A DNA stretch of 64,000 nucleotides. Source: Rhodococcus sp. SMB37 (lineage in GTDB: Bacteria > Actinomycetota > Actinomycetes > Mycobacteriales > Mycobacteriaceae). Positions 5,022 through 51,774 of the stretch are shown piece by piece (the stretch's first letter is position 1; every line of letters begins with the position of its first letter). Where the stretch lies: contig NZ_SLVY01000011.1 in assembly GCF_004345605.1 (NCBI RefSeq), positions 62,001 to 126,000 of the forward strand, in the 5' to 3' direction. The translations under genes were made by a program, and so were the position numbers. A model generated the notes under the pieces. That model worked only from the letters and a program-made list of their open reading frames with translations, was not told the DNA's origin and searched no databases.

Positions 5022-5519
5022 TCAGTGCAGGTGGGCCATTGCTTCGGTGGGCAGCGGTGTCGCGAACATCCGCTGCGTACGGAACCGGCTCATCCGGGCG
5101 GTGGGATGGGGGAGTCGTTCGATCTCGAAGTCGATTTCGAGCCGGGCGCACAACAACTCGGCGGTGCCGTCCGTGTGGAGCGAGAGTTGCTGCATGATCC
5201 AACGGCCCCGAGTATCGTCACCCTCGACCCGGATCTGCTCGCTGCCGAGCAGATGAGCATTGCGGACGAAGTGCTCTGCCGGTGGGAGATACTGCGAGAC
5301 GAGCGCAACCACCTCGGCGCGCCCTCGGGCGATTCCGAACTTGCCGGCGTACTCAGGGCCTACCCCCTCCCAGGTCGCGTCGGCGGTGAACAGCAGTCCG
5401 ATCTCGTCGGCGCTCTCCAATGGCCCGGGCACGTCGCACAGGTCCATGTAGCGGGTCAGGCAGTCGCGGACGGCGTCCTTCGCTTCGAGGACTGCCAGAC
5501 GGCGTTCGAGGGCGGTCAT
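5022..5519 (-). CDS. iacI: SnoaL/NTF2-like protein (IacI)
   Basis: This 165-residue protein has an NTF2-like fold: an N-terminal helix (LEAKDAVRDCLTRYMDLCD), then FTADATWEG, then alternating strands ending near MSRFRTQRMFATP. It resembles the small SnoaL-like proteins called IacI in indole-acetate clusters. Such folds act as small hydrolases, isomerases or beta-like subunits. No catalytic residue is certain. It sits between iacB and iacC on the same strand, 4 bp after the iacB stop, so it is co-transcribed. Confidence 0.75.
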   Translation of the reverse strand: MTALERRLAVLEAKDAVRDCLTRYMDLCDVPGPLESADEIGLLFTADATWEGVGPEYAGKFGIARGRAEVVALVSQYLPPAEHFVRNAHLLGSEQIRVEGDDTRGRWIMQQLSLHTDGTAELLCARLEIDFEIERLPHPTARMSRFRTQRMFATPLPTEAMAHLH

Positions 5520-5523
5520 CGGA

Positions 5524-5883
5524 TCACAACTCCACGTCGTCCCGAATGGTCAGCTCACGACCCATCCGCGCTTCGATCTTGAAGAACTTCCACAGTGCGT
5601 ATTCGCCGATCATGGTGGTGCGCAGCAGGTTGCATGCGTTCTTCACCGTCTCTTGATCCCGAGCATCGGCGAGGACGTAGCAGGTCCACGGCCAGCCATC
5701 GGACGGCCCGACCATGTGGGCGTCGTCGTCGAAGGTGCCGATGATGTCGATGCCGTCCATGTTCTTCAGGTTCGACAGCATGGTGGAAATGCCGACCCAG
5801 ACCGGGCCGATCTCCGCCTTGGGCAGATCGAAGAAATTCTGGTTGTTGCCGATGCAGAACAGTGTGCGCAGCGGTTCGGCCAT
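5524..5883 (-). CDS. iacB: IacB-like protein of indole-acetate degradation
   Basis: This is a 119-residue protein opening with LFCIGNNQNFFDLP and containing FDDDAHMVG, PWTCYVLAD and the ending GEYALWKFFKIEARMGR. I recognise this layout as IacB, a small protein found only in iac-type clusters, with a probable ferredoxin-like alpha/beta barrel shape. It is thought to act early, with IacA, on the first oxidised indole product. An AAAGGA site precedes ATG 5883. It follows iacA at once in the operon. It is the most diagnostic gene for naming this cluster. Confidence 0.8.
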   Translation of the reverse strand: MAEPLRTLFCIGNNQNFFDLPKAEIGPVWVGISTMLSNLKNMDGIDIIGTFDDDAHMVGPSDGWPWTCYVLADARDQETVKNACNLLRTTMIGEYALWKFFKIEARMGRELTIRDDVEL

Positions 5884-5915
5884 GACGGCGTCCTTTCGTT
5901 GGGGTGCGAGCCCGG

Positions 5916-30335: not shown

Positions 30336-31574
30336 ATGACAGAGAATTCCACGACCGGGGTCGGCGAGGCCGTTCTGAGCTTCCCTGTCGAACGCGACGC
30401 ACGCTGCCCGTTCGACGTGCCCGCCGCACTCATCGGCTCGGCGGCCGATCAGCCTCTGAGACGAGCACGCATCTGGGACGGCAGCACACCGTGGCTGGTC
30501 ACGGGCAACGCCGAATTACGGTTGTTGGCACTGGATCCGCGCATCAGCACCGACGATCGTCTGACGGGTTTCCCGCACTGGAATGCCGGTCGGGCAGCGA
30601 TCGCCCCGATGCGGCCCGACAGCATCTTCAACACCGATGGGCCCGGGCATCTGCGACTACGCCGCATGATGACACGCACATTCTCGTACAAGCGTGTCGA
30701 AGCTCAACGCGAGAAGATCCAGCAGGTGACGGACAAGCTCATCGACGACATGCTCGCAGGGCCGAATCCGGTCGACCTCGTACCGGCATTCGGTCTTCCA
30801 CTTCCGTCGTTCATGATCTGTGAATTGCTCGGAGTCCCCTACGACAATCACGATTTCTTCCAGGAACACGCCTCGGCGGCGATGGATCGCTATGCCACAC
30901 CGGAACTGCAGGAACGGCTGTTCACGGCGATGCGTGGCTACATGCGTGAGGTCATCGAAGAGCGGCTCGCCTCGCAGGAGGAGTCGACGGGCGTGATCGC
31001 AGAGTTCGCCGACAACATTCGTGCGGGCGACATGACGATCGACGAAGGGGTCGCGCTGGCCAACGGTCTGCTGTCGGCCGGGCACGAGACCAGCGCCGGC
31101 ATCATTTCACTCGGGACCCTGGCTCTTCTGCAGAATCCCGAGCAGCTCGAGTTCCTGCGCAACAACGACGATCCCAAGGCCATCGCCAATGCGGTCGAAG
31201 AGCTCCTGCGGTACCTGAGCATTGTGCACAACGGCCAGCGTCGGATCGCCTTGGAAGACATCGAGATCGGCGACGTCGTGGTCCGTGCAGGCGAAGGTGT
31301 CATTCTCGACTACTCCGCGGGCAGCTGGGATGCGAGGACTTTCGACGAGCCGCGGCAGTTCGATGTGGCTCGAGTGGCGAACAAGCATCTTGCCTTCGGA
31401 TTCGGCCCGCACGGGTGCATCGGCCAGCAGCTCGCCCGCGTCGAACTTCAGGTCGCCTTCGCCACTCTCATTCGCCGAATCCCGACTCTGGAGCTCGCCG
31501 TTCCGATCGAGCAGATCGAGTTCAAGCACGACCGGCTCGCCTACGGTGTCTACTCCCTGCCCGTGAGTTGGTGA
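30336..31574 (+). CDS. Cytochrome P450
   Basis: This 412-residue soluble bacterial P450 has AGHET on the I helix (248-252), ExxR at Glu289-Arg292 and the heme Cys361 in FGFGPHGCIG. The N-terminus matches class I actinobacterial P450s (CYP105/107-like in feel; subfamily not assignable). It hydroxylates an unactivated carbon, receiving electrons from the ferredoxin just upstream. In a route that turns a cyclohexane acid into a phenol, this would be the first ring hydroxylation, followed by the SDR and the desaturases. Confidence 0.93.
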   Translation: MTENSTTGVGEAVLSFPVERDARCPFDVPAALIGSAADQPLRRARIWDGSTPWLVTGNAELRLLALDPRISTDDRLTGFPHWNAGRAAIAPMRPDSIFNTDGPGHLRLRRMMTRTFSYKRVEAQREKIQQVTDKLIDDMLAGPNPVDLVPAFGLPLPSFMICELLGVPYDNHDFFQEHASAAMDRYATPELQERLFTAMRGYMREVIEERLASQEESTGVIAEFADNIRAGDMTIDEGVALANGLLSAGHETSAGIISLGTLALLQNPEQLEFLRNNDDPKAIANAVEELLRYLSIVHNGQRRIALEDIEIGDVVVRAGEGVILDYSAGSWDARTFDEPRQFDVARVANKHLAFGFGPHGCIGQQLARVELQVAFATLIRRIPTLELAVPIEQIEFKHDRLAYGVYSLPVSW

Positions 31575-37212: not shown

Positions 37213-37638
37213 TCAGCCGGTAGCTCGGTCGAGTTCGGAACCGGACTGGACGGGTGCAGCCGCGATGCGGCGGGGATCGCCGTCGGGGAGCGATTCGATC
37301 AGGATACGTCGCGGGTGTGCCGCAGAGCCCGTCGTCAGATACTTCTGGCCAGGACGCACACGTCGGGCCTCGTCGGCTGTCTCGTCCGTGACCGGAGGAG
37401 CAGTGGGTTCGTTGAGTGCGTCGCGCACGACCCGTCGTGGGTCGTACTGCTTCAGGTCCAATGAAGTCGCGACCCCCATTTCACGTTCGGCTGCACCGCG
37501 CGTCGATTCGACGAAGTCGCGCAGTGCCCGAACAGTGCGGGCGAGCTGATGGGCGTACACGGGCAGCCGTTGCGGACCGAGCACGACCCCCGCGATGATG
37601 GCGACGAGGAAGAGTTTCTCGAAGGTCAGGCCGAACAT
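37213..37638 (-). CDS. tatB: TatB-like Sec-independent translocase subunit
   Basis: This 141-residue protein has the TatA/B layout: one N-terminal membrane helix (FEKLFLVAIIAGVVL), a GPQRLP hinge, an amphipathic helix (LARTVRALRDFVES) and a long polar tail. The long tail and the hinge favour TatB over TatA. Its start lies inside the 3' end of tatC. The order tatA-tatC-tatB is not that of the usual actinobacterial genome, where tatB stands alone and tatA-tatC are paired. This looks like a second, self-contained Tat set. Confidence 0.82.
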   Translation of the reverse strand: MFGLTFEKLFLVAIIAGVVLGPQRLPVYAHQLARTVRALRDFVESTRGAAEREMGVATSLDLKQYDPRRVVRDALNEPTAPPVTDETADEARRVRPGQKYLTTGSAAHPRRILIESLPDGDPRRIAAAPVQSGSELDRATG

Positions 37639-38396
37639 GTTGTGGATTCCTCATTTCGGGACGCTCGCCTGTCGTGCAGCGTCGTGATGACGAGTGCGGC
37701 GCCGAACAATACCGACATCGGCAACGCGACCAAGAACATGGACAGGACGTCGGCGGCCGGTGTTACCAGTGCACTGAACAGCGTGATGACGACGATGATT
37801 ACGCGCCAGCTGCTACGGAGCCTGGCTGCGGAGACGATCCCGATGTAGTTCAACATCACCAGGAACACCGGCAGAACAAAGGCAATCCCGGTCGCCAGAA
37901 CAACTTTCATCACGAAGTCCACGTAGTACGACGCGTTGAGGATCGTGCTGTCCTGGTCGGACGAGAATGCGGTGAGCACGCTCACCATCCGGGGGAAGAT
38001 CAGGAATCCGAACGCGCAACCGGCAGCGAAGAGCGGGGCGGCCGCCGCGGAGAACCCGAGGACGTACTTCTTCTCCCGGCGTGTCAGGCCGGGGGTGACG
38101 TAGGCGAAGAGCTCTCGCAGCCAGATCGGACTGGACAGGATCACGCCCGAGAACAGCGCGATCTTCAGCTGGAGGTCGAACGCACCGGTCACGGTATCGT
38201 AGTTGAGGCTGGCCTCCCGGGAGAGCGCCAGCTGCTCGACAGGTTCGCGCAGGACGTCGAGGATCTGATCCGAGAGAGCGAACCCGACGATCACGCCGAT
38301 GAGCAGCGACACCGCCGCGCGAACACCGCGACGTCGTGCCTCGCCCAGGTGTCCGGCGATCGGCATCGTGCCTCGCGTGGCGGTGATCGCGGTCAT
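37626..38396 (-). CDS. tatC: TatC-like translocase core protein
   Basis: This is a 256-residue membrane protein with six hydrophobic spans and the TatC markers: HLGEARRR at the N-terminus (where the signal peptide is bound), PIWLRELFAYVTPGL between spans, and FPRM. TatC is the receptor for twin-arginine signals. It is divergent from typical TatC in the HLxELRxR motif, reading HLGEARRR. It overlaps both tatA (ATGA) and tatB. This compact unit probably serves the lipoprotein encoded first in the operon. Confidence 0.85.
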   Translation of the reverse strand: MTAITATRGTMPIAGHLGEARRRGVRAAVSLLIGVIVGFALSDQILDVLREPVEQLALSREASLNYDTVTGAFDLQLKIALFSGVILSSPIWLRELFAYVTPGLTRREKKYVLGFSAAAAPLFAAGCAFGFLIFPRMVSVLTAFSSDQDSTILNASYYVDFVMKVVLATGIAFVLPVFLVMLNYIGIVSAARLRSSWRVIIVVITLFSALVTPAADVLSMFLVALPMSVLFGAALVITTLHDRRASRNEESTTCSA

Positions 38397-38593
38397 GACG
38401 CGCGGCGGTACGGAACCTGAGTGAGGTCCGCGGTCTGCGCGTCGGTGGTCGGCTCGTCACTCACCTCGTCCTTGAGGATGCGCATCGACTGGCCGACGCT
38501 CTTGGCGAGCGCCGGAAGCTTGGTCGAGCCGAAGACGAGGAGGACGATCGCGAGGATGATGAGGGCATGCCAGCCCGTGAGGTTGTTCAACAT
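38393..38593 (-). CDS. tatA: TatA-like pore subunit
   Basis: This 66-residue protein has one N-terminal span (WHALIILAIVLLVFG), an FGSTKLPALAKSVGQSM hinge and amphipathic helix, and a short acidic tail, all classical for TatA. AAGGA precedes the start. It lies 44 bp after the stop of the Tat-signal lipoprotein gene and overlaps tatC, so all four genes should share one transcript. Confidence 0.88.
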   Translation of the reverse strand: MLNNLTGWHALIILAIVLLVFGSTKLPALAKSVGQSMRILKDEVSDEPTTDAQTADLTQVPYRRAS

Positions 38594-38637: not shown

Positions 38638-39603
38638 TCAGTTGGGGGCGTCCGAGCCCATGCCCGGCATGCCTCCACGGGGAGGTTCGCCGCCCATCGG
38701 TGCACCCGCCGGGGGGACGCCGCCACTGCTGAGGGTGGGTTCGGTCGTCGTATCGACCGCGACGGCCAGCGACCCGACGTATCCGGAGTCGGTGTTCCCG
38801 GAGAACGTCCCCATCTGCAGGTCGTATCCGTCGCCGAAGACGTTGTCGTTGTCGAGGCTTCCGATCTGGGCAAGATTCTCGGCCGACCCCGAGTAGGTAT
38901 CCAGCAGGTAGACCTCGTCGAGCATGTCCTGGGGAAACGCGATCTGTGACGTCGCGATCGCATTCTCGACGTTGGTCGCGGAGTCGACGTCGGGGTAGAC
39001 CTCGAAGTGAATGTGGGTCCAGCGACCCGTGTAGCAGCCGGGCACGATCGTCTCGAAGGTTGCCTTACCGTCGGCGTCGGCCACCTGGATCCCGCGCAGG
39101 TAGGTCTCGTCCTCGACACCTTCGGTGTACATCGAGTACCGGCCCTGCGCGTCGCACTGCCAGGCGTACACGGCGACCCCTTCGAACGGGGTGTTGTCAT
39201 TCGCCATGTCGGTGACAGTGAAGGTGAGGGAAAGGGGAACACCGTCGGCGGTGGTGCCGCCGTCGAGGCTCGACGTGATCTCACTGCGGACGATCCCGGA
39301 TTCCTCGAGCACGTTGACCCCGTTCGTGCCATCGGCCGGATAGGGGCCGTTGGTTTCCTCGGGGATTTCGCCGGCGGGTGTGCTCACCGTGGCGGCAGTG
39401 CTGTCGTTGCTCGGGGAACACGCGGCCAGTGCCAGCGCCCCGGCCCCGGCACCGACGATGCTCAGCACTCGCCGGCGGGTGACCAGGGTGGCGATGTCGA
39501 AGCCTGCACCCTGATCGACGACATCCTCGGTGGGGCGGTCGAGCAGGCGGCCTTGGTATGCGGGTCCGTCCGGTGTATCGGTGGGTTCGGGAGCGGGGCT
39601 CAT
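38638..39603 (-). CDS. Tat-exported lipoprotein with intradiol-dioxygenase fold
   Basis: This 321-residue protein has an unusually long N-region, then a twin-arginine motif TRRRVLS (42-48), a hydrophobic stretch and a lipobox LAAC with Cys62. The body has the intradiol ring-cleavage dioxygenase fold: NGPYPADG, the strand VYAWQCDAQGRYS, and the iron-site motif CYTGRWTHIHFEV with the His-X-His pair. The tail is Pro/Gly/Met-rich (PPRGGMPGMGS). It would be folded with its iron in the cytoplasm, exported by Tat and anchored outside. The substrate is unknown. It is the first gene before tatA-tatC-tatB. Confidence 0.85.
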   Translation of the reverse strand: MSPAPEPTDTPDGPAYQGRLLDRPTEDVVDQGAGFDIATLVTRRRVLSIVGAGAGALALAACSPSNDSTAATVSTPAGEIPEETNGPYPADGTNGVNVLEESGIVRSEITSSLDGGTTADGVPLSLTFTVTDMANDNTPFEGVAVYAWQCDAQGRYSMYTEGVEDETYLRGIQVADADGKATFETIVPGCYTGRWTHIHFEVYPDVDSATNVENAIATSQIAFPQDMLDEVYLLDTYSGSAENLAQIGSLDNDNVFGDGYDLQMGTFSGNTDSGYVGSLAVAVDTTTEPTLSSGGVPPAGAPMGGEPPRGGMPGMGSDAPN

Positions 39604-39743: not shown

Positions 39744-40184
39744 TCAGGAGTTCAGGTCGGTCACCAGTACCGCGGTCAACGCAACTTCCACCGGCGCCCC
39801 GCCTGGGAGGGTGTACACCCCGATCGCACTGCGCGCGGGTAGGTGGTCCGGGCCGAGCTCTGTGGCAATCATCTCCGACGCTCCATCCGCCACCGCCGAC
39901 AACGCCGTGAAATCAGCGGTCGCTGCCACGTACACGACCATCTCGGCCGGGCGAAAGCGGTGACCGGCAGGAACCACCGACCGCACCGCGGCCAGTGCAT
40001 TGCGTGCGCCCAGGGACGCGGCCGCATGGGCCTGGGCGACAGTCACCTCAGCGCCGACCCTGCCGGTGACGGTGAGTACGCCGTCGACACGGGGCGTCAT
40101 CCCCGCTGTGCGGACGGTGTCGCCGGCGAGTACCGCAGCGACGTAACGACCTTGCGGTACAGGGGCTTCGATATCACTCGACAC
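39744..40184 (-). CDS. RidA/YjgF-family protein
   Basis: This 146-residue protein of the RidA superfamily has AGMTPRV near the start, a central ARNALAAV segment, and the ending ARSAIGVYTLPGGAPVEVALTAV. The Arg of the last block corresponds to the residue that binds the substrate carboxylate in RidA. GTG 40184 lies inside the gamma-glutamyltransferase gene's end, so translation is coupled. RidA proteins hydrolyse reactive enamines and imines. Placing one at the end of an amine-oxidising gene set suggests it clears an imine intermediate here (inference). Confidence 0.82.
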   Translation of the reverse strand: MSSDIEAPVPQGRYVAAVLAGDTVRTAGMTPRVDGVLTVTGRVGAEVTVAQAHAAASLGARNALAAVRSVVPAGHRFRPAEMVVYVAATADFTALSAVADGASEMIATELGPDHLPARSAIGVYTLPGGAPVEVALTAVLVTDLNS

Positions 40185-41763
40185 CGAGCACCACCCCTTC
40201 CTGTCGAGGATCGCTCCCCCCACTCATCACACCCTGCGTCATCGAGACGACTTGTGCGCTGCCCTCGGCACCGTAGGCGTCGAGCACGTTGACCTGGTGA
40301 CCCATATCCGACAGCGATCGAAGGACCTCACGGCCGACTCGTCCTTCGATACGCAGCTCGGGGGCGTGGCCGAGGGCGTTCGCATCGGACCCGGGGTACA
40401 CCGTGAACCGAGGCGCCTCCACCGTCTCCTGCGGATCGAGTCCGTGGTCCAGCAGATGGGACAGGAGTTGCATGTTCCACTGCACCTGGCCGTCACCACC
40501 GGGGGTGTTGCCGACATGCATGAGTTCGCCGTCGCTGCCGGTGACGATCCAGGCGTTGAGTGTGTGCAAGGGTTTGCGTCGCGGCGACACCTCGTTGGGA
40601 TGGCCGTCGATCAGGTATGCCCCACGACCGAGTCGGTTGTTGAGAGCCACACCGGTTCCGGGCACTGTGAACTTCGCGCCGAAGGTGAATGCGAGGGAAT
40701 GGATGAAGGAGACGGCTCGGCCCTCGGCGTCGACGGCGACGAACGACGTCGTATCTCCACCCGACACGGCAAATGCGCCTGCGGCTTCCCAGGAGGCGAG
40801 CCGAGCCCGTCCGTCGGCGATGTTCGTCGCGGAAAGCGCTTGTTCGACGCCGTCATTGTCCGAACCACACCACCGCAATCGGTCCTCGAACGAGAGCGCT
40901 GCGGCACGCGCCATACGGTCGATGGCCGGAGCGCTCAGCCAAGGCATCGTGCCGAGCTCTCCGTCGCACAACGCGGCCTGCTGCAACACCATCCACCCCG
41001 GTGTCGGCAGCGGGGTCTGGTGCACTGTCGTTCCCGCGTACGTCCCGGTCAGTGCGGATTCGACGGGAACCGAAGCACCCGCGACCCATTCGTCGCCTGT
41101 GAACGGCGCACCGGAATACTGCAACGCCGCGACACAGTGCTCGGCAATTGCCCCGGTATAGAACGAAGATGGATCCGACGCGAGGGCACGGATGGTACGC
41201 GCCAGGTCGACCTGCGGAAGCCGATCACCCACGCGCGGAACGGCCCCCGTCGGCGTGTATACCGAGGCGAGACCGACATCGGAGCGGATGGCGTGGAGTG
41301 CAGCCTGCACGTCGGCGCGGGTTTTCGCCGAACACGGTAGCCCGCGTTCGGCGATGCGCGCGGCGGGCTCCCACAACTCGAGCAACGACATGCTCGCCCC
41401 GTACGCATGCAGAGCGGCGAGTGCAGCGGGCGCGCCCGGCACGGCGACGGCGAGAGCGCCGTCCAGCGGGATCGCAGAGAGTCCCCGGTCCCGGTAGAAG
41501 TCCGGAATACCACCGTCCGGTCCGTAACCGCTGCCGTTGACAGTCCGGACGGAACCGTCCGGGTCGCGCACCACGGCGAATGCGTCGCCGCCGATCCCGC
41601 ATTGTCCGGGCAGTGTCAGCCAGGTGACCGCCGCCATCGCGAGGGCCGCGTCGACCGCGTTACCACCGTGCGCCAGTACTCGCGCTCCTGCCTGGCTCGC
41701 GAGTGGGTGACTCGACGCCACCATGCCGCCGGTCGCAAGAGTGGCGGGGCGCCGCGCGCTCAT
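40174..41763 (-). CDS. ggt: Gamma-glutamyltransferase-family Ntn hydrolase
   Basis: This 529-residue protein has the GGT proenzyme layout: GGMVASSHPLAS at the start, GNAVDAALA, CGIGGDAF, and the self-cleavage site before Thr in GGDTTSFVAVD, followed by the small-subunit motifs GVALNNRL and GTGVAL. There is no signal peptide, so it is cytoplasmic, unlike typical periplasmic GGT. Known cytoplasmic relatives act on gamma-glutamyl amides or other amides and lactams in catabolism. ATG 41763 overlaps the Rieske gene stop. Its partners suggest a role in releasing or making an amine. Confidence 0.85.
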   Translation of the reverse strand: MSARRPATLATGGMVASSHPLASQAGARVLAHGGNAVDAALAMAAVTWLTLPGQCGIGGDAFAVVRDPDGSVRTVNGSGYGPDGGIPDFYRDRGLSAIPLDGALAVAVPGAPAALAALHAYGASMSLLELWEPAARIAERGLPCSAKTRADVQAALHAIRSDVGLASVYTPTGAVPRVGDRLPQVDLARTIRALASDPSSFYTGAIAEHCVAALQYSGAPFTGDEWVAGASVPVESALTGTYAGTTVHQTPLPTPGWMVLQQAALCDGELGTMPWLSAPAIDRMARAAALSFEDRLRWCGSDNDGVEQALSATNIADGRARLASWEAAGAFAVSGGDTTSFVAVDAEGRAVSFIHSLAFTFGAKFTVPGTGVALNNRLGRGAYLIDGHPNEVSPRRKPLHTLNAWIVTGSDGELMHVGNTPGGDGQVQWNMQLLSHLLDHGLDPQETVEAPRFTVYPGSDANALGHAPELRIEGRVGREVLRSLSDMGHQVNVLDAYGAEGSAQVVSMTQGVMSGGSDPRQEGVVLGVE

Positions 41764-42116
41764 GCCGACCTCATCCTGCGCCGGCGTGGACCTTCCGGAG
41801 GCTCGCTGGGATCGATGCCGACGAAGATCTCACCGTCCCGTTCCTCACACGGGTAGGTCTTGATCGGCTCGGTCGCGGGCGGGCAGATCGGCTCGCCGGT
41901 CTCGAGGTCGAAAGCACTTCCATGGCAGGAGCATCCGATCCCGTCCTGCACAAGCTTGCCGGACGACAGCAGACAGTCTAGATGGGAACAGTAGTTGGAC
42001 GTCGCATACGCTTTGCCGTCCAGCCGTGAGATCGCGAATTCGTAGTCGTCGGCGTAGAACCGGCGAACGATGCCTTCGGTCACCTGCCCGGAACGGGCCA
42101 CTCGCTTGAACTCCAT
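41760..42116 (-). CDS. Rieske [2Fe-2S] ferredoxin-like protein (second copy)
   Basis: This 118-residue Rieske protein has the cluster ligands CSHLDC and CSCHGSAFD (Cys-X-His and Cys-X2-His). An additional Cys sits in each box, as in the disulfide-stabilised high-potential Rieske proteins. The ending is basic (RRRRMRS). It is coupled to the GGT gene. The locus has another Rieske ferredoxin at 44801, so the two may serve different steps. The extra Cys pair makes a disulfide possible, which is unusual for a cytoplasmic ferredoxin. Confidence 0.82.
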   Translation of the reverse strand: MEFKRVARSGQVTEGIVRRFYADDYEFAISRLDGKAYATSNYCSHLDCLLSSGKLVQDGIGCSCHGSAFDLETGEPICPPATEPIKTYPCEERDGEIFVGIDPSEPPEGPRRRRMRSA

Positions 42117-42144: not shown

Positions 42145-43581
42145 TCAGGCCTGCGGCGACAGGTACACGGTCTTCTCGGATTGGTAGAACTGCATCAGGG
42201 TCGGTCCGGCCTGTTCCTTGAACGTCTGGGTGCTCGACTGCTTGTAGCCGCCGAACGGCGCGTTCATGGCCATCCCGGTGGTGGGCTGGTTGACCTTGAC
42301 GAGACCGGTACGGGAACCTGCGATGAACCGATGAGCATCCGGCAGATTCTTCGTCACGATCGAGGCGCAGAGCCCGAACGCGGTGTCGTTCGCGAGGACG
42401 AGAGCTTCGTCGAACGACGTGGCGCGTTGGAATGCGAGGACGGGGCCGAAGATCTCGTCCGTCAGCAGTCGCATACCGGGGGTGGTGTCGGCGAAGACGG
42501 TGGGCCGCACGAACAGTCCGCCGATGCGCTCCCCACCGCACACGAGTCGTGCACCGCCGTCGATACCGATTGCGACGTACTCGAGATACTTGTCGAGTTG
42601 AGCCTCGGAGGCGAGTGGGCCCATGGATACGCCCCGGTCAGAGCCCGTCCCGACCGTGAGTGCTTCGGTCCGCGTGACCACCTTGTCGAGCAGTGCGTCG
42701 TGGATCTCGTCGACCGCGATGACGCGGCTGGTGCCGGTGCAGGCTTGTCCCGACAAGCCGAACGCGCCCTTGACGATGAGCGCCGCGGCGGCGTCGATGT
42801 CGGCATCGGCGAGTACGACGACAGGATTCTTTCCGCCCATCTCCAACTGCACGCGGCGTTCGGGGCCGATGCCGCGGTGGATTGCCCTGCCGACCTCGGT
42901 GGAGCCGGTGAATGTCACTGCCGCTACACGTTCGTCGCCGACCATGGCGGCACCGGCCTTGCCGTCGCCCTGGACGAGCGCAATCGCACCTGGAGGCAAT
43001 CCTCCGGCGAGCAATGCTTCGACAAGACGTTGGCCCATGAGCGGGGTGATTTCGGACGGCTTGAACAGCACCGTATTTCCGGCAGCAAGTGCGGGCCCGA
43101 GCTTGCGGGACGGAATGTTCAGCGGGAAGTTCCACGGAGTGATCGCACCGACTATCCCGATGGGCTCGCGCACCGTGTACACCGTGGTGGGACCACCGCC
43201 GGGGTAGACCGTGCCCGTCGCACGGTGGGCCTCGCCGGCGTAGAACCGGAGGTTCATCGGCGTGCGGCTCACCTCCATCGATGCTTCGGCGCGGGTCTTG
43301 CCCTCTTCGCGGATCAGCTCCTCGACGAGTGTGTCCGCGTGGGCTGCGAGGTGATCGGCGGCGGCCTCGAGGATGGCGGCGCGCCGCTCCGGTGGTGTGG
43401 CCGCCCACTCGGGGGCTGCCTTGTCGAGCGCATCGACGGCGTTCTGCACGTCGACTGTATCCGAATCGGGGAATGTTCCGATCAGGTCGGAATCGTCTGC
43501 GGGGTTGCGTCGTTCGAATACCTTTCCGGAGTTGGCCGGTACCCAGTTGCTGTCGATGAAATTCGATCCGGTGATCGTCAT
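42145..43581 (-). CDS. NAD(P)-dependent aldehyde dehydrogenase
   Basis: This is a 478-residue member of the ALDH superfamily: TPWNFPLNIPSRKLGPAL, FTGSTEVGRAI for the cofactor, general-base Glu in LEMGGKNP, and the nucleophile Cys in SGQACTGTSR. It resembles the vanillin/semialdehyde branch. It would oxidise an aldehyde released by the oxygenase of this cluster to an acid. Its start overlaps the ferredoxin reductase stop (ATGA, 43578-43581). Most of a longer frame on this strand is a shadow of the reductase. Confidence 0.9.
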   Translation of the reverse strand: MTITGSNFIDSNWVPANSGKVFERRNPADDSDLIGTFPDSDTVDVQNAVDALDKAAPEWAATPPERRAAILEAAADHLAAHADTLVEELIREEGKTRAEASMEVSRTPMNLRFYAGEAHRATGTVYPGGGPTTVYTVREPIGIVGAITPWNFPLNIPSRKLGPALAAGNTVLFKPSEITPLMGQRLVEALLAGGLPPGAIALVQGDGKAGAAMVGDERVAAVTFTGSTEVGRAIHRGIGPERRVQLEMGGKNPVVVLADADIDAAAALIVKGAFGLSGQACTGTSRVIAVDEIHDALLDKVVTRTEALTVGTGSDRGVSMGPLASEAQLDKYLEYVAIGIDGGARLVCGGERIGGLFVRPTVFADTTPGMRLLTDEIFGPVLAFQRATSFDEALVLANDTAFGLCASIVTKNLPDAHRFIAGSRTGLVKVNQPTTGMAMNAPFGGYKQSSTQTFKEQAGPTLMQFYQSEKTVYLSPQA

Positions 43582-44804
43582 GCCTGCTCCAACTCCTCGT
43601 ACATTTCCCACAGATCGGCGTCCTCGTCGCCGAGTAGTGCAGCGTCGACACGCTTCCCGACCAGTTCGCGTGCGGCCATGATGTCTTCGCCTCGATCCAT
43701 CGCGAATGCGGCGGTGAGTGTCTCGCCCGCAAGATAGAAGACGGAGAACTCGCCGGTGTCGATGTCGCCGCGCACAACGAAGTCTGTTGCACCGGATGCT
43801 GTACCCGCGAATTGGATGTTCGTGTCGTATTGATCGGACCAGAACCAGTGCGGGTCGTCGGAGAGGGTGTCGCGTCCGACGAGCGCGTTCGCCACCACAC
43901 CCGCCTGCCGGTTGGCATTGTCGAAATGCTCGACGCGGATGTGCCTGCCCACGCGCGGTGAATATCGACTGGCGACGTCGCCCGCGGCATACACGTGTGG
44001 CACCGAGGTACGACCGACTGCGTCGACCACGATCCCGCCGTCGACGGCCAATCCACTTGTCGCGGCGACCTCGACGTTCGGGATGATGCCGATCCCGACC
44101 ACTGCTGCATCCGCTTCCACGACGTCCCCTGTCGTCGTCGTGATTCGGACTCCGCGGTCGGAGGTGTCGACCGCGGAGACGCCCGTGCCGGTGCGTAGAT
44201 CGACGCCGCCGCGGCGATGCAGATCCGCGCAGTAGCCGCCGACCTGCCGGCCGAGGACGTTGCCGAGCAGGTGCTCGGACTGCTCGATCACCGTGACGTT
44301 CACCCCGAGGGAACGGGCGGTCGCGGCAATCTCGAGCCCGATGAATCCGCCGCCGACGATGGCGAGTGAAGAGTTGGGGGTGAGCCGCGCGGCGAGCGCC
44401 TGCGCGTCGTCGAGGGTGCGCAGGTAGTGAACCAGGTCGGTGCGAGTGCCCGTTGCAGGGACAGCGCGTGGGCGGCCGCCGGTCGCGAGGACGACGGCAT
44501 CGGCGGCGATGCTTCCGCCATCGAATTCGACGGTGCCTGTGGCGGTGTCGACTCGTCGGACCGCGACACCCGTACGGATGTCGATGTCGTTGGTCTCGAG
44601 CCATTTCGGAGTCAGAAGCGCCAGGGAGTCCACCCCTTCACGTCCTGCGAGGAACTCCTTCGAGAGCGGCGGGCGCTGGTACGGTGCGTGCAGTTCGTCG
44701 CCGAGCAGGATGATCCTGCCGTCGAACCCGCGGCGGCGGAGGGTACGGGCGGCGACTGCGGCGACCTGGCCGGCGCCGACCGTGACAACGGTGCGGATTG
44801 TCAT
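43578..44804 (-). CDS. FAD-dependent ferredoxin reductase
   Basis: This is a 408-residue NADH:ferredoxin reductase of the oxygenase-coupled type: VGAGQVAAVAARTLR for FAD, PYQRPPLSKEFL, VGGGFIGLEIA for NADH, and VYAAGDVAS with HWFWSDQYDTNIQ. The first FAD motif is GxGxxA rather than GxGxxG, a small oddity. It would move electrons from NADH to the Rieske ferredoxin encoded just upstream, which it overlaps (ATGA). The pair forms the redox chain for the diiron oxygenase of the cluster. Confidence 0.9.
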   Translation of the reverse strand: MTIRTVVTVGAGQVAAVAARTLRRRGFDGRIILLGDELHAPYQRPPLSKEFLAGREGVDSLALLTPKWLETNDIDIRTGVAVRRVDTATGTVEFDGGSIAADAVVLATGGRPRAVPATGTRTDLVHYLRTLDDAQALAARLTPNSSLAIVGGGFIGLEIAATARSLGVNVTVIEQSEHLLGNVLGRQVGGYCADLHRRGGVDLRTGTGVSAVDTSDRGVRITTTTGDVVEADAAVVGIGIIPNVEVAATSGLAVDGGIVVDAVGRTSVPHVYAAGDVASRYSPRVGRHIRVEHFDNANRQAGVVANALVGRDTLSDDPHWFWSDQYDTNIQFAGTASGATDFVVRGDIDTGEFSVFYLAGETLTAAFAMDRGEDIMAARELVGKRVDAALLGDEDADLWEMYEELEQA

Positions 44805-45148
44805 GAAGCACACTCTCTTCCGGACACCTCGCGCGGTGTGGGATCGATGTGGACGGTGTCGCCGTCGACGTGGACGGCGTACGTCGGCTGGCAGAGGTCC
44901 TGGTCGTCCTCGTACCCGGTGTCGAGGTCGAAACGCCATTGATGGCCCGGGCAGATGACACGGCCGTGCAGTAGCGTGCCCTTGGCGAGGGAACGGTCCT
45001 GGTGGACGCACAGGTCGGCGAAGGCGTAGATGCGGTCGTTGGCGTGGAACAGCGCGATCGCCACGCCGTCTACTTCCACGCGTAGCTTGCGGCGCCGAGT
45101 CACCTCTTTGACGGTGGCGACAGCGACCCAAGTCTGTGGGGTGGACAT
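44801..45148 (-). CDS. Rieske-type ferredoxin (first copy)
   Basis: This is a 115-residue Rieske ferredoxin with ligands in CVHQD (Cys-X-His) and CPGHQW (Cys-X2-His), without the extra disulfide Cys. It resembles the soluble ferredoxins that feed aromatic dioxygenases and is preceded by GAAGGAG. It stands 68 bp after the oxygenase gene and overlaps the reductase gene. The only oxygenase beside it is the diiron HDO enzyme, so it is its presumed electron donor. Confidence 0.88.
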   Translation of the reverse strand: MSTPQTWVAVATVKEVTRRRKLRVEVDGVAIALFHANDRIYAFADLCVHQDRSLAKGTLLHGRVICPGHQWRFDLDTGYEDDQDLCQPTYAVHVDGDTVHIDPTPREVSGRECAS

Positions 45149-45216: not shown

Positions 45217-45936
45217 TCAGGCCGACGCCAACTCCAGGTCGGGAGCGACGTAGCTGTCGTACAGACCCTTGGTATACGAGAAGCGCATCTCCGCACCCCA
45301 CCGCACGAGCTGCAGGCAACGCTGCTGCAGCGCGGGAGTATCGGCGCAGTCGAGCACGATCTGGTAGCCGCGCTCGCCGTGGACGACGTCGGAGGTGATG
45401 TGCAGGTCGAAGAACTCGATCTCGTCCTCGGTGAACCCGTACACCTCGCGAAGCGGGATGATCTGCTTCTTGTAGATGCTCGGCACCTGGGATTCGAGAC
45501 CGACAACGAGCGCGGCAGTGGCGACCACGAAATGTTCGCGCTGCGAGACCGCGTAGCACCAGGCCTGCAGGCCTCGTGTGACGGCATTCATGTTGTTCGG
45601 GTCTTCGATGCGTTCCTTGGTGGTACCGCAGGCCTCGGCGAACTTGATGAGGAGATCGGTGTGCCGGATGTCGGCGAGTTCCTCCTCGTACATGTTCTGG
45701 AGGGTGAAGTCCTTGGCGTCGGTGTAGTGGTCGGGGGTGTTGGAGTAGATGTTGGCGAGGTAGTCGGCGAACGGGCCGACGTAGTGGTAGTGGTTTTCGG
45801 CCCAGCGGGCGAAGTGGTGCTTTTCGAGCTTGCCTTCGGCCCACGCCTTGCTGAACGATGCGTCCTTGGCCTCGCGGCCCTTGATTGCGTTTTCGAGTGC
45901 GGCGCGGAACTCGTCGCGTCCGAGCAGTTCGGTCAT
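45217..45936 (-). CDS. Heme-oxygenase-like diiron oxygenase (CADD/PqqC family)
   Basis: This 239-residue all-helical protein is of the TenA/PqqC/CADD type. It shows a full set of diiron ligands: Glu85, His92, Glu148, His179, Asp183 and His186. The last three follow the HxxxDxxH signature of HDO enzymes (UndA, SznF, BesC, CADD). The spacing matches what I recall for CADD. Glu47 with His49 and His51 lies in the first helices. PqqC itself lacks the metal site, so this is more likely an oxygen-activating iron enzyme. It heads an operon with its own ferredoxin and reductase. Amines, amino acids or amides are typical HDO substrates. Confidence 0.8.
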   Translation of the reverse strand: MTELLGRDEFRAALENAIKGREAKDASFSKAWAEGKLEKHHFARWAENHYHYVGPFADYLANIYSNTPDHYTDAKDFTLQNMYEEELADIRHTDLLIKFAEACGTTKERIEDPNNMNAVTRGLQAWCYAVSQREHFVVATAALVVGLESQVPSIYKKQIIPLREVYGFTEDEIEFFDLHITSDVVHGERGYQIVLDCADTPALQQRCLQLVRWGAEMRFSYTKGLYDSYVAPDLELASA

Positions 45937-46120
45937 GAGATGTACCTTTCACGTTGATCGTGCGGGCGATGCCGGGCTTGGGGTACGTCCGCGACGTTGC
46001 GGTCCGAAAAATGCCTGACGGCAGTTTGTTTCGGTGTCATCGACCTTAAGTTCGAGTAGGACCCGCTGCCATGGTCACAATGACCGGAGAATTCGGCCGG
46101 TCAGGGTCGATATGCACGAA

Positions 46121-46570
46121 TCATTGAGCGGGTGCCGAGACGAGCGCCTCGAACTCGGCGAGCATTGCGGCGCCGACCGCCTTGTCCTGTTCGCCGTTTC
46201 CGCCGCTGATGCCCACGGCACCGACGATCTGGCCGTCGTGGACGAGGGGGAACCCGCCGACGAAGACAGCGAACTTGCCGGGCAGCATGTGACTGATTCC
46301 GAAGGCCTCGTTGCCGGGGAGTGCCGGTCCGTTGGGCGGCTCGTTGAACAGGTGGGTGGCGCGCTCGTGGCCGGCGGCGGTGTAGGCCTTGGCGATGGCG
46401 ATGTCGACGCCGGTCAGTCGTGCACCGGGAATCCGATGCAGTGCAATGACATTTGCGCTCTCATCGCATACACACAGTGTCTGCTTGACGCCGAGTTCCT
46501 CGGCCTTGGCGCGCCCGGCGGCGAGCAGGGGGAGTGCGTCGTCGAGGTCGATCCGATGAATTCGATGCAT
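46121..46570 (-). CDS. GlcG/HbpS-family protein
   Basis: This is a 149-residue GlcG/HbpS-like protein: DDALPLLAAGRAKAEELGV, then CDESANVIALHRIPGA, DIAIAKAYTA, and the closing GQIVGAVGISGGNGEQDKAV. Members bind small ligands, heme or cobalamin, and are common in catabolic gene sets, but their role is rarely known. It precedes the oxygenase gene on the same strand by 185 bp and lies downstream of a motif C site, so it may be the first gene of this pathway's transcript. Confidence 0.83.
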   Translation of the reverse strand: MHRIHRIDLDDALPLLAAGRAKAEELGVKQTLCVCDESANVIALHRIPGARLTGVDIAIAKAYTAAGHERATHLFNEPPNGPALPGNEAFGISHMLPGKFAVFVGGFPLVHDGQIVGAVGISGGNGEQDKAVGAAMLAEFEALVSAPAQ

Positions 46571-46667: not shown

Positions 46668-46686
46668 TGGACATTGTGCACATTCG
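46668..46686. promoter_or_regulatory. Motif C, site 1 (between GlcG and PucR genes)
   Basis: TGGACATTGTGCACATTCG contains the palindrome TGTGCACA and shares TGGRCAYTGTGCAY with sites at 49963 and 50098. It is placed between the divergent GlcG and PucR-type regulator genes, where a self-regulating activator would bind. Confidence 0.55.
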
Positions 46687-46775: not shown

Positions 46776-48431
46776 GTGGAACCGAGTCCGCGCCTGACCG
46801 TCCGTGGTCTTCTCGACGAACAACTCATGGAAGGTGCTCGGGTCGCGCCCGACAACGCTGATCTCGACAGTGCCCTCACGTGGGTACTGCCACTCGGCGA
46901 GGTCATAGGCCGCTACGACGATCTGTCCGGCGTCGCCGTATACACCCGACCGGAGGCGCTCGCGGCCAACGCACCGGCCGTATCGGCGATCGCTGCCCGT
47001 GGCGCCGCAGCGCTCATCGTCGACGGCGCAGCGCCGGCGTCCGACGCCACATGGCCCCTGGGCCTACCCGTGATCGAACTCGACCTCCCGGTCGGATTCG
47101 CCGCGCTCAACAGGCTTCTCGCCGAACGGTCACTGACACAGGAAGTGCACGTGATGCGCTATTCCGCACTTGTGCACTCCACTCTCGCCGGCCTCCTGCA
47201 TCGAGGTGCCGGCCTTGCGCTGTTGATCAAGGAGGTGTCGTCGCTCGCGCAACATCCCGCGCTCGTGCTCGACGCCCGCGGCCAGGTCGTAGCCCATCAC
47301 GCCATAGATCGGGTGGTCGTCGATGAGATTACGGAGCACCTCCAGGGTCCCCTCGCCGCCGCGCCGACGGCGAGCCGGCATCAGCATCACGACACCCGCG
47401 TCGTGGAGCAGACCGCGGGAGGGGTGCGCTGGACGTGCACTGCCGGCGCGATCCGCCTCGGCAAGAGGTTCGAAGGGTGGGTGGTGATTCTCGCCCCCGG
47501 CCCCGCGCCGGGCCCGCACGATCTCGCTCAGCACGCGGTGGTCACCGAGCAGGCATCTGCGATCATCGGTTCCGAGATGCTGCGCCAGAGCAGCGTGGAC
47601 GAGGCCGAGGAACGCGCGCGCGGTGATTTCGTCCAGGCGCTCGTCCACGGCAGCTTCTCCAGTCGCCATGATATGCAGGCCCGCGCCGAGTATCACGACA
47701 TTGACCTCACCTCGACATTCGCCGTGTTCGTCGCGCCCGGGTACAGCGGGAATCCTTCCGCGCCGGGCGGTGAGGGTCCGGGCGGATTGTTGCGACTCGC
47801 CCGGTACGCGGCCAGCGTTCTGCCGCACCCCTCCGTCCGGTCGTATGTCACCGTGATCGGCGACGCACTCGTCGTGGTGCGGTCGCTCCGATATCGCGAT
47901 GCCCCCGACATCGAAGCGGAGATCGACGAATTCGCGGAGGCCGTGTCGGCGGACCTGTCGCGGCGTCGAGGCCGGCCGGTACCTGTCGCACACGGAGTAC
48001 CCGCCGTCGGCGCCGATCAGATCCGCGAGAGTTACCGACAGGCGCGGGTGGCGCTCGGGATCGGGCAGCGGATGGACATGTCAGGCTCGGTGTCATACCA
48101 CGACCTGCGCGGATACGGTGTCCTCGAGCTCGTCGCCGACACCGACCGCAGCCGACGTTTCGTCGATGACGTGCTCGGCACCCTAAGGCCGGGAACCGAC
48201 CTCCACGACACGCTCGTCGCGTATCTCGGCGCCGGCGGCAACGTCAACGCTGCCGCACGCGAACTCAACGTGCACCGCAACACGATGCTCTCGAAGCTCG
48301 ACCGGATCTCGCGGGCGATGTCGATGGACGTACGGGTGCCGGAGAATCAATTCACTGCCTGGCTCGCCATCCGGCTCGAATTGCTCGATCGACTGCATAC
48401 CTCGGTGGATCGCGAGATCAACTACCGCTGA
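46776..48431 (+). CDS. PucR-family transcriptional regulator
   Basis: This is a 551-residue regulator with GTG start 46776. The N-terminal PucR ligand domain (about 5-125) is followed by a GGDEF-like CdaR middle domain (around 285-430). A C-terminal helix-turn-helix contains GNVNAAARELNVHRNTMLSKLDRI. PucR/CdaR proteins are activators of catabolic operons for purines, sugar acids, amines or polyethers. It is divergent from the GlcG/oxygenase run and converges on the MFS transporter with a 14-base overlap. Three copies of motif C make it the likely switch of the whole region. Confidence 0.88.
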   Translation: MEPSPRLTVRGLLDEQLMEGARVAPDNADLDSALTWVLPLGEVIGRYDDLSGVAVYTRPEALAANAPAVSAIAARGAAALIVDGAAPASDATWPLGLPVIELDLPVGFAALNRLLAERSLTQEVHVMRYSALVHSTLAGLLHRGAGLALLIKEVSSLAQHPALVLDARGQVVAHHAIDRVVVDEITEHLQGPLAAAPTASRHQHHDTRVVEQTAGGVRWTCTAGAIRLGKRFEGWVVILAPGPAPGPHDLAQHAVVTEQASAIIGSEMLRQSSVDEAEERARGDFVQALVHGSFSSRHDMQARAEYHDIDLTSTFAVFVAPGYSGNPSAPGGEGPGGLLRLARYAASVLPHPSVRSYVTVIGDALVVVRSLRYRDAPDIEAEIDEFAEAVSADLSRRRGRPVPVAHGVPAVGADQIRESYRQARVALGIGQRMDMSGSVSYHDLRGYGVLELVADTDRSRRFVDDVLGTLRPGTDLHDTLVAYLGAGGNVNAAARELNVHRNTMLSKLDRISRAMSMDVRVPENQFTAWLAIRLELLDRLHTSVDREINYR

Positions 48432-49839
48432 GCGTGTCTGCATCGGTGTCGCGTGCCGGCGGCGATGCGGCAGTGTCTTCGGGATCGCGTCCGAGGAACG
48501 AAGCTCCGAGCCCGATGCACACGACGGCCACGCATGCGACGAACACGATTCCCACCGACCACGCGGACAGCGCGATCGTCACCCATGCCGCGCCCACCGC
48601 GGAGCCTCCGAAGCGGATGAGATTGAAGACGCCGAGCCCGGTGCCCTGTGCACCGGCGGGGGAGCGCGTCGATCCGGCCGCGGCGGGTGTCTGCACTGCG
48701 GCGATGCCCGCTCCGGTCACCGCGAGAACACACGCGACGAGCCACAGGTTCGGTTCGTCGTTCGACAGAACGACCGCGAGCGCCCCCTGAGTCACCACCA
48801 GGACGGCCAGACCGAACCGCAGAACACGTCGCCCGCCGATCCGGTCGGTCGTCCGGCCCACCAGCGGTGCGAGGGCCGCCATGACGGCAGGGAGTGCGAA
48901 CAGGACCATGCCCGAAGTCGCGGTGGATTCACCCGTCGCCGTCAATCTGAGTGGAACGGCAAGCAGGGCAGTGCCGAGACAGAACATCTGCGCGAACGCG
49001 GCGACCGCGCTCCGAGCGAAACGACTCTCGACGAGCAGGCGCGCATCGATGAACGGCAGGGGAGCGCGCAGGCAGTGCGCGACAAACCATGCCAGTACGG
49101 CGGTCGATGCCACGAGTGCCAGTGGAGGAACAGCCGGCGCGACACCGGACTGACCGAACATGCTCAAGCCCAGCACGATTCCCGCGGATCCTACGGTGAG
49201 TGTCGTAGCGCCGAGCACATCGAGTCGAATGGGTCGGCCGGGGAACGCCGGTATCCATCGCAGTGTTCCGGCGAATCCGATCAGCGCAATCGGAATCAGA
49301 GGGACGAACACCCACCGCCAACCCCAACTGCCGGCCACGAACCCGCCGAGCGACGGTCCGATCGCCTGGCCGATCCCGTTGACGGTTGCCCACGCGCCCA
49401 CGGCACGCGCGCGGCGTTGTGAGTCGAAGAGCCACGCGATCAGTCCCATCACCGCCGGGGCGAACGCTGCGGCCGAGAGTCCACCGAGTGCGCGCCAGGC
49501 GATGAGCACTTCGAGGGCGGGGGCTGTGGCTGCGCCTGCCGCGCACACCGCGGTACCGAGGAGGGCGCCGCAGTACACGCGCCGGCGCCCGAAGCGATCG
49601 CCGATGTAACCCGCGATCGGCATCGCTGCCGCGAAGGTGAGGAGGAATGCGACGGCGAGCAGTGTGCCGTCCTCCAGCGACGCGTCGAAATCCGAGAGGA
49701 TCTGGACAAGCGGAACGTTGATGATGTTGTTGCTCAGTGTTCCGACGAGTGTGCCGGCGAGAAGCGCGGACAGCGCCAGTGGGGTGCCGGTGCCGGACGC
49801 GTCCGGAGACGCGGCGGGCACGTGTGTGGAGGTGGTCAT
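48418..49839 (-). CDS. MFS transporter (DHA2/EmrB-like)
   Basis: This is a 473-residue major-facilitator protein starting at ATG 49839 behind CAGGAG; a longer frame to 50220 is not supported. About twelve or more spans are visible. Motif A is GYIGDRFGRRRVY between the second and third spans, and a later RIGGRRVLRFG repeats it in the second half. GxxxGPxxGG (GIGQAIGPSLGG) is typical of drug:proton antiporters. It may export a toxic amine or import the substrate. Motif C lies about 125 bp upstream. Confidence 0.87.
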   Translation of the reverse strand: MTTSTHVPAASPDASGTGTPLALSALLAGTLVGTLSNNIINVPLVQILSDFDASLEDGTLLAVAFLLTFAAAMPIAGYIGDRFGRRRVYCGALLGTAVCAAGAATAPALEVLIAWRALGGLSAAAFAPAVMGLIAWLFDSQRRARAVGAWATVNGIGQAIGPSLGGFVAGSWGWRWVFVPLIPIALIGFAGTLRWIPAFPGRPIRLDVLGATTLTVGSAGIVLGLSMFGQSGVAPAVPPLALVASTAVLAWFVAHCLRAPLPFIDARLLVESRFARSAVAAFAQMFCLGTALLAVPLRLTATGESTATSGMVLFALPAVMAALAPLVGRTTDRIGGRRVLRFGLAVLVVTQGALAVVLSNDEPNLWLVACVLAVTGAGIAAVQTPAAAGSTRSPAGAQGTGLGVFNLIRFGGSAVGAAWVTIALSAWSVGIVFVACVAVVCIGLGASFLGRDPEDTAASPPARDTDADTLSGS

Positions 49840-49962: not shown

Positions 49963-49978
49963 TGGGCATTGTGCACAG
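49963..49978. promoter_or_regulatory. Motif C, site 2 (upstream of MFS transporter)
   Basis: TGGGCATTGTGCACAG has the same core as site 1, differing by one base in the first ten (A to G). It lies 124 bp before the MFS start. Confidence 0.5.
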
Positions 49979-50097
49979 TGCGCGGTGGGAAACCCTGGCC
50001 GCGCGTGTGTCGACACATGTTCGTAGCAATTTGTCACATGCGAGCGGCCCGATGACACGAAATCGCAAAAGTGGAACACACTGCACACGTAACGTCC

Positions 50098-50193: not shown

Positions 50194-51774
50194 TTGGACG
50201 TACAACTCACCGCCGCCCACTGGGTCTACCTGGTCGGCATACTCGTCATCCTGGCCACCATGGCGCTACGGAAGAACATCGTCGTTCCCGCCGTCATCGC
50301 AACGTTCCTGACCGCACTGGTTTTCTCCGGCAGTATCGTCACCGGACTGTCCGCCATCTTCAACGCCAGCCTGGTGGCGGCGAAGGAACTGTTCAACATC
50401 TTCCTCATCATCGCGATGGTCACCGCGATGCTCGGCGCACTACGCCAGCTCGGCGCCGATCGGATGATGGTCGCACCGTTCCGCCGCGTCATGCGTGCCG
50501 GAACCAGCAGTTTCCTGGTTCTCGCTGCCGTCACCTACGTGATCTCGCTGTTCTTCTGGCCGACTCCCGCTGTCCCGCTGGTCGGCGCGGTGCTCATTCC
50601 CGTCGCAATCCGGGCGGGCTTGTCTCCGCTGTCGGTGGGCATGGTCATCGCGATCTGCGGCCAGGGAATGGCGTTGTCGTCGGACTACATCATCAAGGTC
50701 GCACCGGGCATCTCCGCGTCCGCGGCGGGGGTCGACCCCGATGCGGTGGCGGACAAAGCACTCGTGTTGTCGCTCATCGTCGGTGGCACCGCCCTTGTGC
50801 TCACGTACCTCATGCAGAAGAAGACCTGGCGTACGCCGTCTCCCGAGCTGCTCATCGAATGGGAAGCCGAGGCCGATCGGGGGATCGGCGAATCACGTTC
50901 CGGGGGTGATGATTCTTCGGGTGGGGGTGGAGGATCGAAGCCGGTGCCGGCGGGTCCGGCCGGCGGGCCCACCGGTGGCGGTACGTCGGCAACCGCGGCG
51001 ACCGTTGTACTCGCCCCCGCGGCGAGCCCGTTCCCGGATGAGGTTGCCGAGGCGGAGAAGGAACGTCGCGGCACCGCAAAGGCTTTCGCGATGCTCGTGC
51101 CTCTCGCATACCTCGCGTTCATCGTCTATCTGATGCTGGGAAAGTTCACCGAGGTCGTGCCGCCACTGCAGGGTGGCGACGCCGCGGCGATCGTGGGTGG
51201 CATTGCGGCACTGGTCTTGTTCGCTGCTGCGGCATCGACCGATGGGGGCGGCTTCCTCGAGACGACTTCGGACCACCTCGTCGACGGCCTGGTGTTCGCG
51301 TTCAAGGCCATGGGTGTTGTGCTGCCCATCGCAGGGTTCTTCTTCATCGGCAATGCCGACTTCGCCGGTGCGATTCTCGGTGTTCCCGACAGTGGCGCTG
51401 CACCTGCGATCCTGTTCGACCTGGTCACCGCAGTGCAGACACACCTGCCACAGAACGCGTTCATCACATCGTTCGGGATCCTGCTCATCGGCCTCGTCGC
51501 AGGTTTGGACGGCTCCGGATTCAGTGGCCTGCCGCTCACGGGTGCGTTGTCGGGTGCGCTCGGTCCCGCGGTCGACGTCGACCCGGCGACGCTCGCCGCG
51601 ATCGGACAGATGGGCAACATCTGGGCGGGCGGCGGTGTGATCATCGCGTGGTCGTCGCTCGTCGCGGTCGCGGGGTTCGCTCGCGTGCCCGTCCTCGATC
51701 TCGCCCGGAAGTGCTTCATCCCGGTGATTTCCGGACTCGTCCTGTCGACGATCTTCGCGGTGCTCGTGTTCTAG
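50194..51774 (+). CDS. Multi-span membrane transporter, family uncertain
   Basis: This 526-residue protein starts at TTG 50194, six bases after AAGGA; longer frames to 50071 have no site. It has about a dozen hydrophobic spans in two halves, separated by a polar Gly/Ser/Pro/Thr-rich linker (about residues 225-285, including a run of Gly). Repeated features such as VPLVGAVLIPVAI and GLDGSGFSGLPLTGAL suggest the ion-transporter (IT) superfamily of anion/organic-acid carriers, but I cannot fix a family. Its motif C promoter and its position suggest it imports the substrate of the oxygenase pathway. Confidence 0.75.
   Translation: MDVQLTAAHWVYLVGILVILATMALRKNIVVPAVIATFLTALVFSGSIVTGLSAIFNASLVAAKELFNIFLIIAMVTAMLGALRQLGADRMMVAPFRRVMRAGTSSFLVLAAVTYVISLFFWPTPAVPLVGAVLIPVAIRAGLSPLSVGMVIAICGQGMALSSDYIIKVAPGISASAAGVDPDAVADKALVLSLIVGGTALVLTYLMQKKTWRTPSPELLIEWEAEADRGIGESRSGGDDSSGGGGGSKPVPAGPAGGPTGGGTSATAATVVLAPAASPFPDEVAEAEKERRGTAKAFAMLVPLAYLAFIVYLMLGKFTEVVPPLQGGDAAAIVGGIAALVLFAAAASTDGGGFLETTSDHLVDGLVFAFKAMGVVLPIAGFFFIGNADFAGAILGVPDSGAAPAILFDLVTAVQTHLPQNAFITSFGILLIGLVAGLDGSGFSGLPLTGALSGALGPAVDVDPATLAAIGQMGNIWAGGGVIIAWSSLVAVAGFARVPVLDLARKCFIPVISGLVLSTIFAVLVF

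Follow-up and report, generated by a model that had tools for sequence, protein, structure and literature searches.

The window analyzed here, a 64,000-nucleotide stretch of the 6.2-Mb, 52-contig genome of Rhodococcus sp. SMB37, contains a gene cluster built around a predicted haem-oxygenase-fold diiron oxygenase (HDO) (Table 1). The genes on the minus strand are transcribed in the order GlcG, HDO, Rieske ferredoxin 1 (Rsk1), reductase, aldehyde dehydrogenase (ALDH), Rieske ferredoxin 2 (Rsk2), gamma-glutamyltransferase (GGT)-family hydrolase, and Rid. Three of the junctions, Rsk1/reductase, reductase/ALDH, and Rsk2/GGT, are 4-base overlaps, as in a translationally coupled operon. A preliminary description had recognized the Rieske ferredoxin and FAD reductase directly behind the HDO gene, as well as an ALDH and a RidA protein, and all of these are indeed present. 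The cluster also holds Rsk2, the GGT-family hydrolase, GlcG, PucR, and two transporters.

Table 1. Features of the HDO cluster (positions are those of the window)
Feature	Position	Strand	Remarks
Rid1-like imine/enamine deaminase	39744..40184	-	GTG start at 40184 inferred
GGT-family Ntn hydrolase	40174..41763	-	Pfam 3e-91
Rieske [2Fe-2S] ferredoxin 2 (Rsk2)	41760..42116	-	118 aa; Pfam Rieske 1.8e-17
Aldehyde dehydrogenase (ALDH)	42145..43581	-	
FAD-dependent NAD(P)H:ferredoxin reductase, HcaD/AndAa type	43578..44804	-	
Rieske [2Fe-2S] ferredoxin 1 (Rsk1)	44801..45148	-	115 aa; Pfam Rieske 4e-15
HDO (predicted haem-oxygenase-fold diiron oxygenase)	45217..45936	-	239 aa, ATG start; 3-His/3-carboxylate ligands
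Degenerate operator copy	46105..46118	-	2 mismatches; upstream of HDO
GlcG/HbpS-like protein	46121..46570	-	Pfam
Operator-like site TGTGCACAATGTCC	46669..46682	-	between GlcG and PucR
PucR-family activator	46776..48431	+	divergent from operon
MFS transporter of cluster	48418..49839	-	
Palindromic operator-like site centred on TGTGCACA	49964..49983	.	between MFS transporter and permease
Conserved permease	50194..51774	+	without Pfam model

Rsk1 has a complete Rieske motif, present in 87/87 orthologues, and the motif of Rsk2 is found in 72/72. The NCBIfam models closest to ALDH are 2,5-dioxovalerate dehydrogenase and alpha-ketoglutaric semialdehyde dehydrogenase, both below cutoff. The GGT-family protein, whose closest relatives of solved structure are GGT-related protein 2i3o and cephalosporin acylase 2nlz, is a probable amidohydrolase. 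No pointer to the substrate came from the ALDH, GGT, Rid, and transporter families, all of which fall below specific NCBIfam cutoffs or have no model, and a search of Rfam gave no matches. The permease matches nothing in Pfam or NCBIfam and resembles no solved structure convincingly; it represents a family for which no model exists. Elsewhere in the window, an intradiol-dioxygenase-domain protein with a leader-like start (38638-39603) adjoins apparent tat genes (37213-38593).

What kind of protein is the HDO? In profile searches, it matches Pfam PF14518 (Haem_oxygenas_2) at 2.1e-35 and TENA_THI-4 at 9e-10, and its closest solved sequences are those of 4-aminobenzoate synthase/CADD and PqqC. 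Six ligand residues had been read from this TenA/PqqC-like protein in the preliminary description, and all six (E85, H92, E148, H179, D183, and H186) were found where it had placed them. They are invariant in 83/83 homologues, from 80 actinobacterial and three Burkholderiales loci, and are kept in a distant actinobacterium whose HDO has 77% identity. According to the literature, most HDOs have this 3-His/3-carboxylate ligand set. The same description had suggested comparing a predicted structure with UndA and CADD, and an AlphaFold model (pLDDT 88, pTM 0.84) does have the haem-oxygenase-like helical fold of the HDO superfamily, with the ligands on the core helices, in predicted helices or at helix ends. 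The top structural match is CtCADD (Z 26.0, rmsd 1.8, 212 residues), followed by PqqC, HrmI, UndA, FlcD, and BesC; Z scores against CADD, HrmI, UndA, FlcD, BesC, and PolF range from 18 to 26. Sequence and model thus suggest that the protein is an HDO that would carry a diiron site and activate O2.

The sacrificial residues of CADD are, in the literature, Tyr27 and Lys152. They align with Ser29 and Gln158 of the present HDO, and Ser/Gln occupy these positions in 83/83 members and in the distant actinobacterium, so that the pair characteristic of a CADD-type 4-aminobenzoate synthase is missing. A wide gap separates the members, with identities of at least 77% in actinobacteria and 66-70% in Burkholderiales, from the next homologues found, at 31% or less. 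No Rieske motif occurs in the stretches examined around 12 of these distant homologues. The source genome itself encodes two further, stand-alone PF14518 proteins (L104:7100-8029 and L105:7340-8179), again with no Rieske motif in the stretch. Where both CADD positions could be aligned in distant homologues, Tyr/Lys was found in 6/7, the other (L136) having Leu/Leu. This contrast would agree with two groups, one of enzymes that sacrifice their own residues and one that turns over with external electrons; any evolutionary direction read into this split is our own inference.

How firmly is the putative electron chain linked to the HDO? Homologues were sampled as the best 80 of 493 encoding stretches from a scan of a genome collection, and their genes were called with a codon-usage script and then clustered; these 80 loci span many actinomycete genera and, being the closest relatives, form a biased sample. 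Of these 80, 75 have enough downstream sequence, and in 72 of the 75 the HDO gene is immediately followed by those for Rsk1 and the reductase. In two of the three exceptions (L019 and L092), tblastn still detects Rsk1 and the reductase, and in the third (L024) the reductase only. Of the 62 long-flank loci among these best 80, the reductase is present in 62, ALDH in 60, two Rieske proteins in 60, Rid in 59, GGT in 58, GlcG in 58, the MFS transporter in 58, PucR in 57, and the permease in 50; no other oxygenase is a conserved cluster member in the loci examined. Streptomyces, Pseudonocardia, and Actinomadura have a different gene order, yet Rsk1 and the reductase still follow the HDO. More distant actinomycetes conserve the HDO best of all cluster proteins (85%) and GlcG next (76%), with the reductase, Rsk1, and ALDH at 50-55%, as one would predict for an HDO that recognizes a specific substrate and a chain that is free to drift.

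The same linkage is seen across whole genomes. In a separate set of 151 genomes of the family, HDO, Rsk1, and Rsk2 each occur in an identical group of 12, representing 4 genera, and are absent from the other 139, among them three genomes of the window's own genus. The corresponding P value of 5e-18 presumes independent genomes, which these, sharing ancestry that the calculation ignores, are not. The dedicated electron chain proposed in the preliminary description is therefore backed by both gene order (72/75 loci) and exact co-occurrence (12/151). Homologues mostly lacking the chain were to have refuted the idea, and the opposite was found.

The chain is not specifically a Rieske chain, though it had been described as such. 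Plasmids or megaplasmids of Burkholderiales (three loci, from a plasmid collection) encode an HDO of 66-70% identity together with ALDH, GlcG, and the permease. No Rieske ferredoxin lies beside the HDO in these three loci; two plant-type [2Fe-2S] ferredoxins (Fer2) and a BenC-like reductase are found instead. The distant actinobacterium has one Rieske and one plant-type ferredoxin (Fer2), in a cluster that also holds GGT, a Rid protein, an OCD-family reductase, GlcG, and ALDH. We found no reductase next to this cluster, which counts against the electron-chain reading. Each of the three versions retains two small [2Fe-2S] carriers, of changing type, an observation from three lineages rather than a rule. 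In the plant-type ferredoxin of the distant actinobacterium (L124:9133-9498), Asp replaces the third cluster cysteine (CASGLCGTD), and a conserved protein of 106-116 aa with no Pfam match is encoded between the ferredoxins in Burkholderiales (L098:11078-11428 and L099:8400-8720).

Alignment of the promoter regions of cluster loci brought out a conserved element, TGTGCAnnnTGnCC. It has 107 exact matches in the 80 loci (best 80 of 493), of which 102, in 62 loci, are intergenic. Intergenic DNA makes up 12% of the locus sequence, and among 200 permuted motifs the intergenic matches averaged 0.3 and never exceeded 3; because the loci counted are those from which TGTGCAnnnTGnCC had been derived, the enrichment does not test the element independently. 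The MFS/permease promoters and those of the rearranged loci were left out when the element was read. Upstream of the HDO, exact copies are frequent in orthologous loci. In a separate, genome-wide check, the source genome has 18 exact sites, 15 inside genes and three intergenic, against 9 for a reversed control pattern, and sites outside the cluster are accordingly taken as chance. The intergenic three lie in the PucR/GlcG promoter, in the MFS/permease promoter, and in one hairpin-like sequence. A near-match to the operator palindrome, with 1 mismatch, inside a cytochrome P450 gene of the window (31216-31236) is likewise taken as chance. PucR, as the conserved regulator of the cluster, is the likely binder of TGTGCAnnnTGnCC, and the distribution of the element suggests that uptake and breakdown genes belong to one regulon. 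The shared operator could be used as a reporter for the substrate of the cluster.

How might these parts work together? The cluster is real, strongly conserved, and functionally coherent; the oxygenase role itself is predicted. We consider it likely that the HDO is a multi-turnover, NADH-driven oxygenase at the start of a catabolic pathway for a small nitrogen compound. In the electron transfer and the order of steps that we infer, the reductase would hand electrons from NADH to a small [2Fe-2S] carrier, and the carrier would re-reduce the diiron site of the HDO in each turnover. The HDO would use O2 to oxidize a small, probably nitrogen-containing substrate. The oxidation could yield an aldehyde, consumed by ALDH, and an imine or enamine, hydrolyzed by Rid or, in relatives, reduced by the OCD-family protein. 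Rid1 proteins are known to deaminate 2-aminoacrylate (PMC5619798). The GGT-family hydrolase would cleave an amide, and PucR would govern uptake and breakdown jointly through the TGTGCAnnnTGnCC sites. An amine may be the substrate, a class drawn only from the neighbouring genes. The loci examined share no conserved CoA ligase, hydratase, or aldolase in the cluster, which points to a probably small substrate whose breakdown would end in central metabolites.

Could the chain serve something else? Rieske non-haem oxygenases or monooxygenases are the usual partners of soluble Rieske ferredoxins and HcaD-type reductases, and most studied HDOs do without a dedicated partner (PMC13108848), so the HDO might be a partner-free oxidase and the ferredoxins and reductase might belong to another oxygenase of the pathway encoded elsewhere. 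This is unlikely, given that the cluster conserves no such oxygenase in the loci examined and that carrier type changes across phyla while the carriers stay with the same HDO. Moreover, the intergenic operators of the source genome lie only in this cluster, apart from the hairpin-like site, and the ring-hydroxylating dioxygenase of the window (4980-3213) has a reductase of its own (2412-1462). The genes of that dioxygenase form a separate group (1462-7088), and part of its reductase matches the DmmA-like domain of dimethylamine monooxygenase in Pfam. Two known kinds of system were also considered for the cluster itself and rejected. A Rieske non-haem oxygenase would have an alpha subunit, which the conserved cluster lacks, its Rieske proteins being of 115-118 aa with a Rieske domain only; for a bacterial multicomponent diiron monooxygenase, there is no ferritin-like hydroxylase or effector among the annotated conserved members.

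Less probable again is a role in stress or detoxification, in which the cluster would not support growth and the HDO, paired with GlcG as a haem binder, would clear a toxic amine or other reactive compound. The family name GlcG/HbpS does point to haem degradation, and Rid proteins remove reactive imines, but two conserved transporters, PucR, ALDH, and a hydrolase make up the usual uptake-and-breakdown set, and the patchy spread over family genomes is that of catabolic clusters rather than general stress genes. As CADD and PqqC are the closest solved structures, a 4-aminobenzoate synthase that sacrifices its own residues, as CADD does, or a biosynthetic enzyme of the PqqC type might also come to mind. 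It is very improbable and was rejected as an identity for the HDO: besides the Ser/Gln replacement, the protein scores far under the NCBIfam cutoffs, with 94 bits against 200 for CADD and 43.6 bits against the equivalog cutoff of 240 for PqqC, and its neighbours are transporters, an activator, and catabolic enzymes, with no folate or PQQ genes. The NADH-driven catabolic oxygenase remains our preferred reading.

An HDO with a redox partner would not be unique to this cluster: MboA/MboB of mangotoxin biosynthesis, described in 2026, is an HDO together with a dedicated NADH-dependent flavin-[2Fe-2S] reductase that it needs (PMC13185094). Both systems combine a 3-His/3-carboxylate HDO with a dedicated reductase, partner dependence being indicated here by linkage and co-occurrence only, and the reductases of the mangotoxin system and of the Burkholderiales version are both broadly BenC-like. 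MboA/MboB, however, is biosynthetic and has a single reductase without separate ferredoxins, whereas the present cluster is catabolic-looking and has a separate reductase and two small carriers, which are Rieske proteins in actinobacteria. The CADD/NePabS 4-aminobenzoate synthases are nearest in fold and sequence and share the six ligands, but the present HDO has Ser/Gln for the sacrificial Tyr/Lys and a redox chain and catabolic genes alongside. HamA (PDB 9vwb) was dismissed as a precedent, its neighbour HamB being a cupin and no redox partner.

The same electron-transfer logic is known on other folds. In toluene-4-monooxygenase and other bacterial multicomponent monooxygenases, a reductase, a Rieske ferredoxin, and a diiron hydroxylase work together, although their ferritin-like hydroxylase and effector protein are absent here. 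In Rhodococcus wratislaviensis, the diiron monooxygenase AibH1H2 receives electrons from NADH through a reductase and a Rieske ferredoxin (AibH1H2-AibG-AibF; PMC7782822). That system shares the logic, a catabolic cluster, and the bacterial group, but AibH1H2 has an amidohydrolase fold (TIM barrel), and both the catalytic protein and the reductase type are unrelated.

By the count of a 2026 review, about a dozen HDOs have been characterized, in a family framed there by natural-product biosynthesis (PMC13108848). Almost all studied members make natural products without an electron partner of this kind; the present cluster is probably catabolic and is carried by soil actinobacteria and some Burkholderiales. 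The earlier statement that no pathway with this gene set has been described still stands, on the weak evidence of a literature search that left out most subscription journals, except that an HDO with a redox partner is known from MboA/MboB. A catabolic-looking HDO with a reductase and separate, exchangeable ferredoxins is not described in the literature searched and is new here, as are the carrier exchange, the contrast of Ser/Gln with Tyr/Lys in chain-free homologues, and TGTGCAnnnTGnCC at the cluster promoters. Tentatively, and with rather less confidence than in the catabolic role, we propose a widespread, CADD-related multicomponent diiron monooxygenase on the haem-oxygenase fold, with an electron chain replacing the sacrificial residues and two separate, exchangeable one-electron carriers; it would open a so far undescribed route for breaking down a common small nitrogen compound. 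If the NADH-driven reading is true, the haem-oxygenase fold can run a multi-turnover oxygenase, a further unrelated fold joins the ferritin-like and amidohydrolase kinds of diiron monooxygenase, and genes annotated only as "iron-containing redox enzyme" gain a metabolic role.

About a dozen mycobacterial loci (L035, L037, and others) have a second copy of the permease and then an amidase (PF01425) downstream of RidA, and in some of them the operator precedes the second permease copy. The amidase copies found elsewhere in the source genome have only 35-41% identity to the amidase adjoining the mycobacterial clusters. The permease-amidase pair is a hint that an amide may be part of the pathway.
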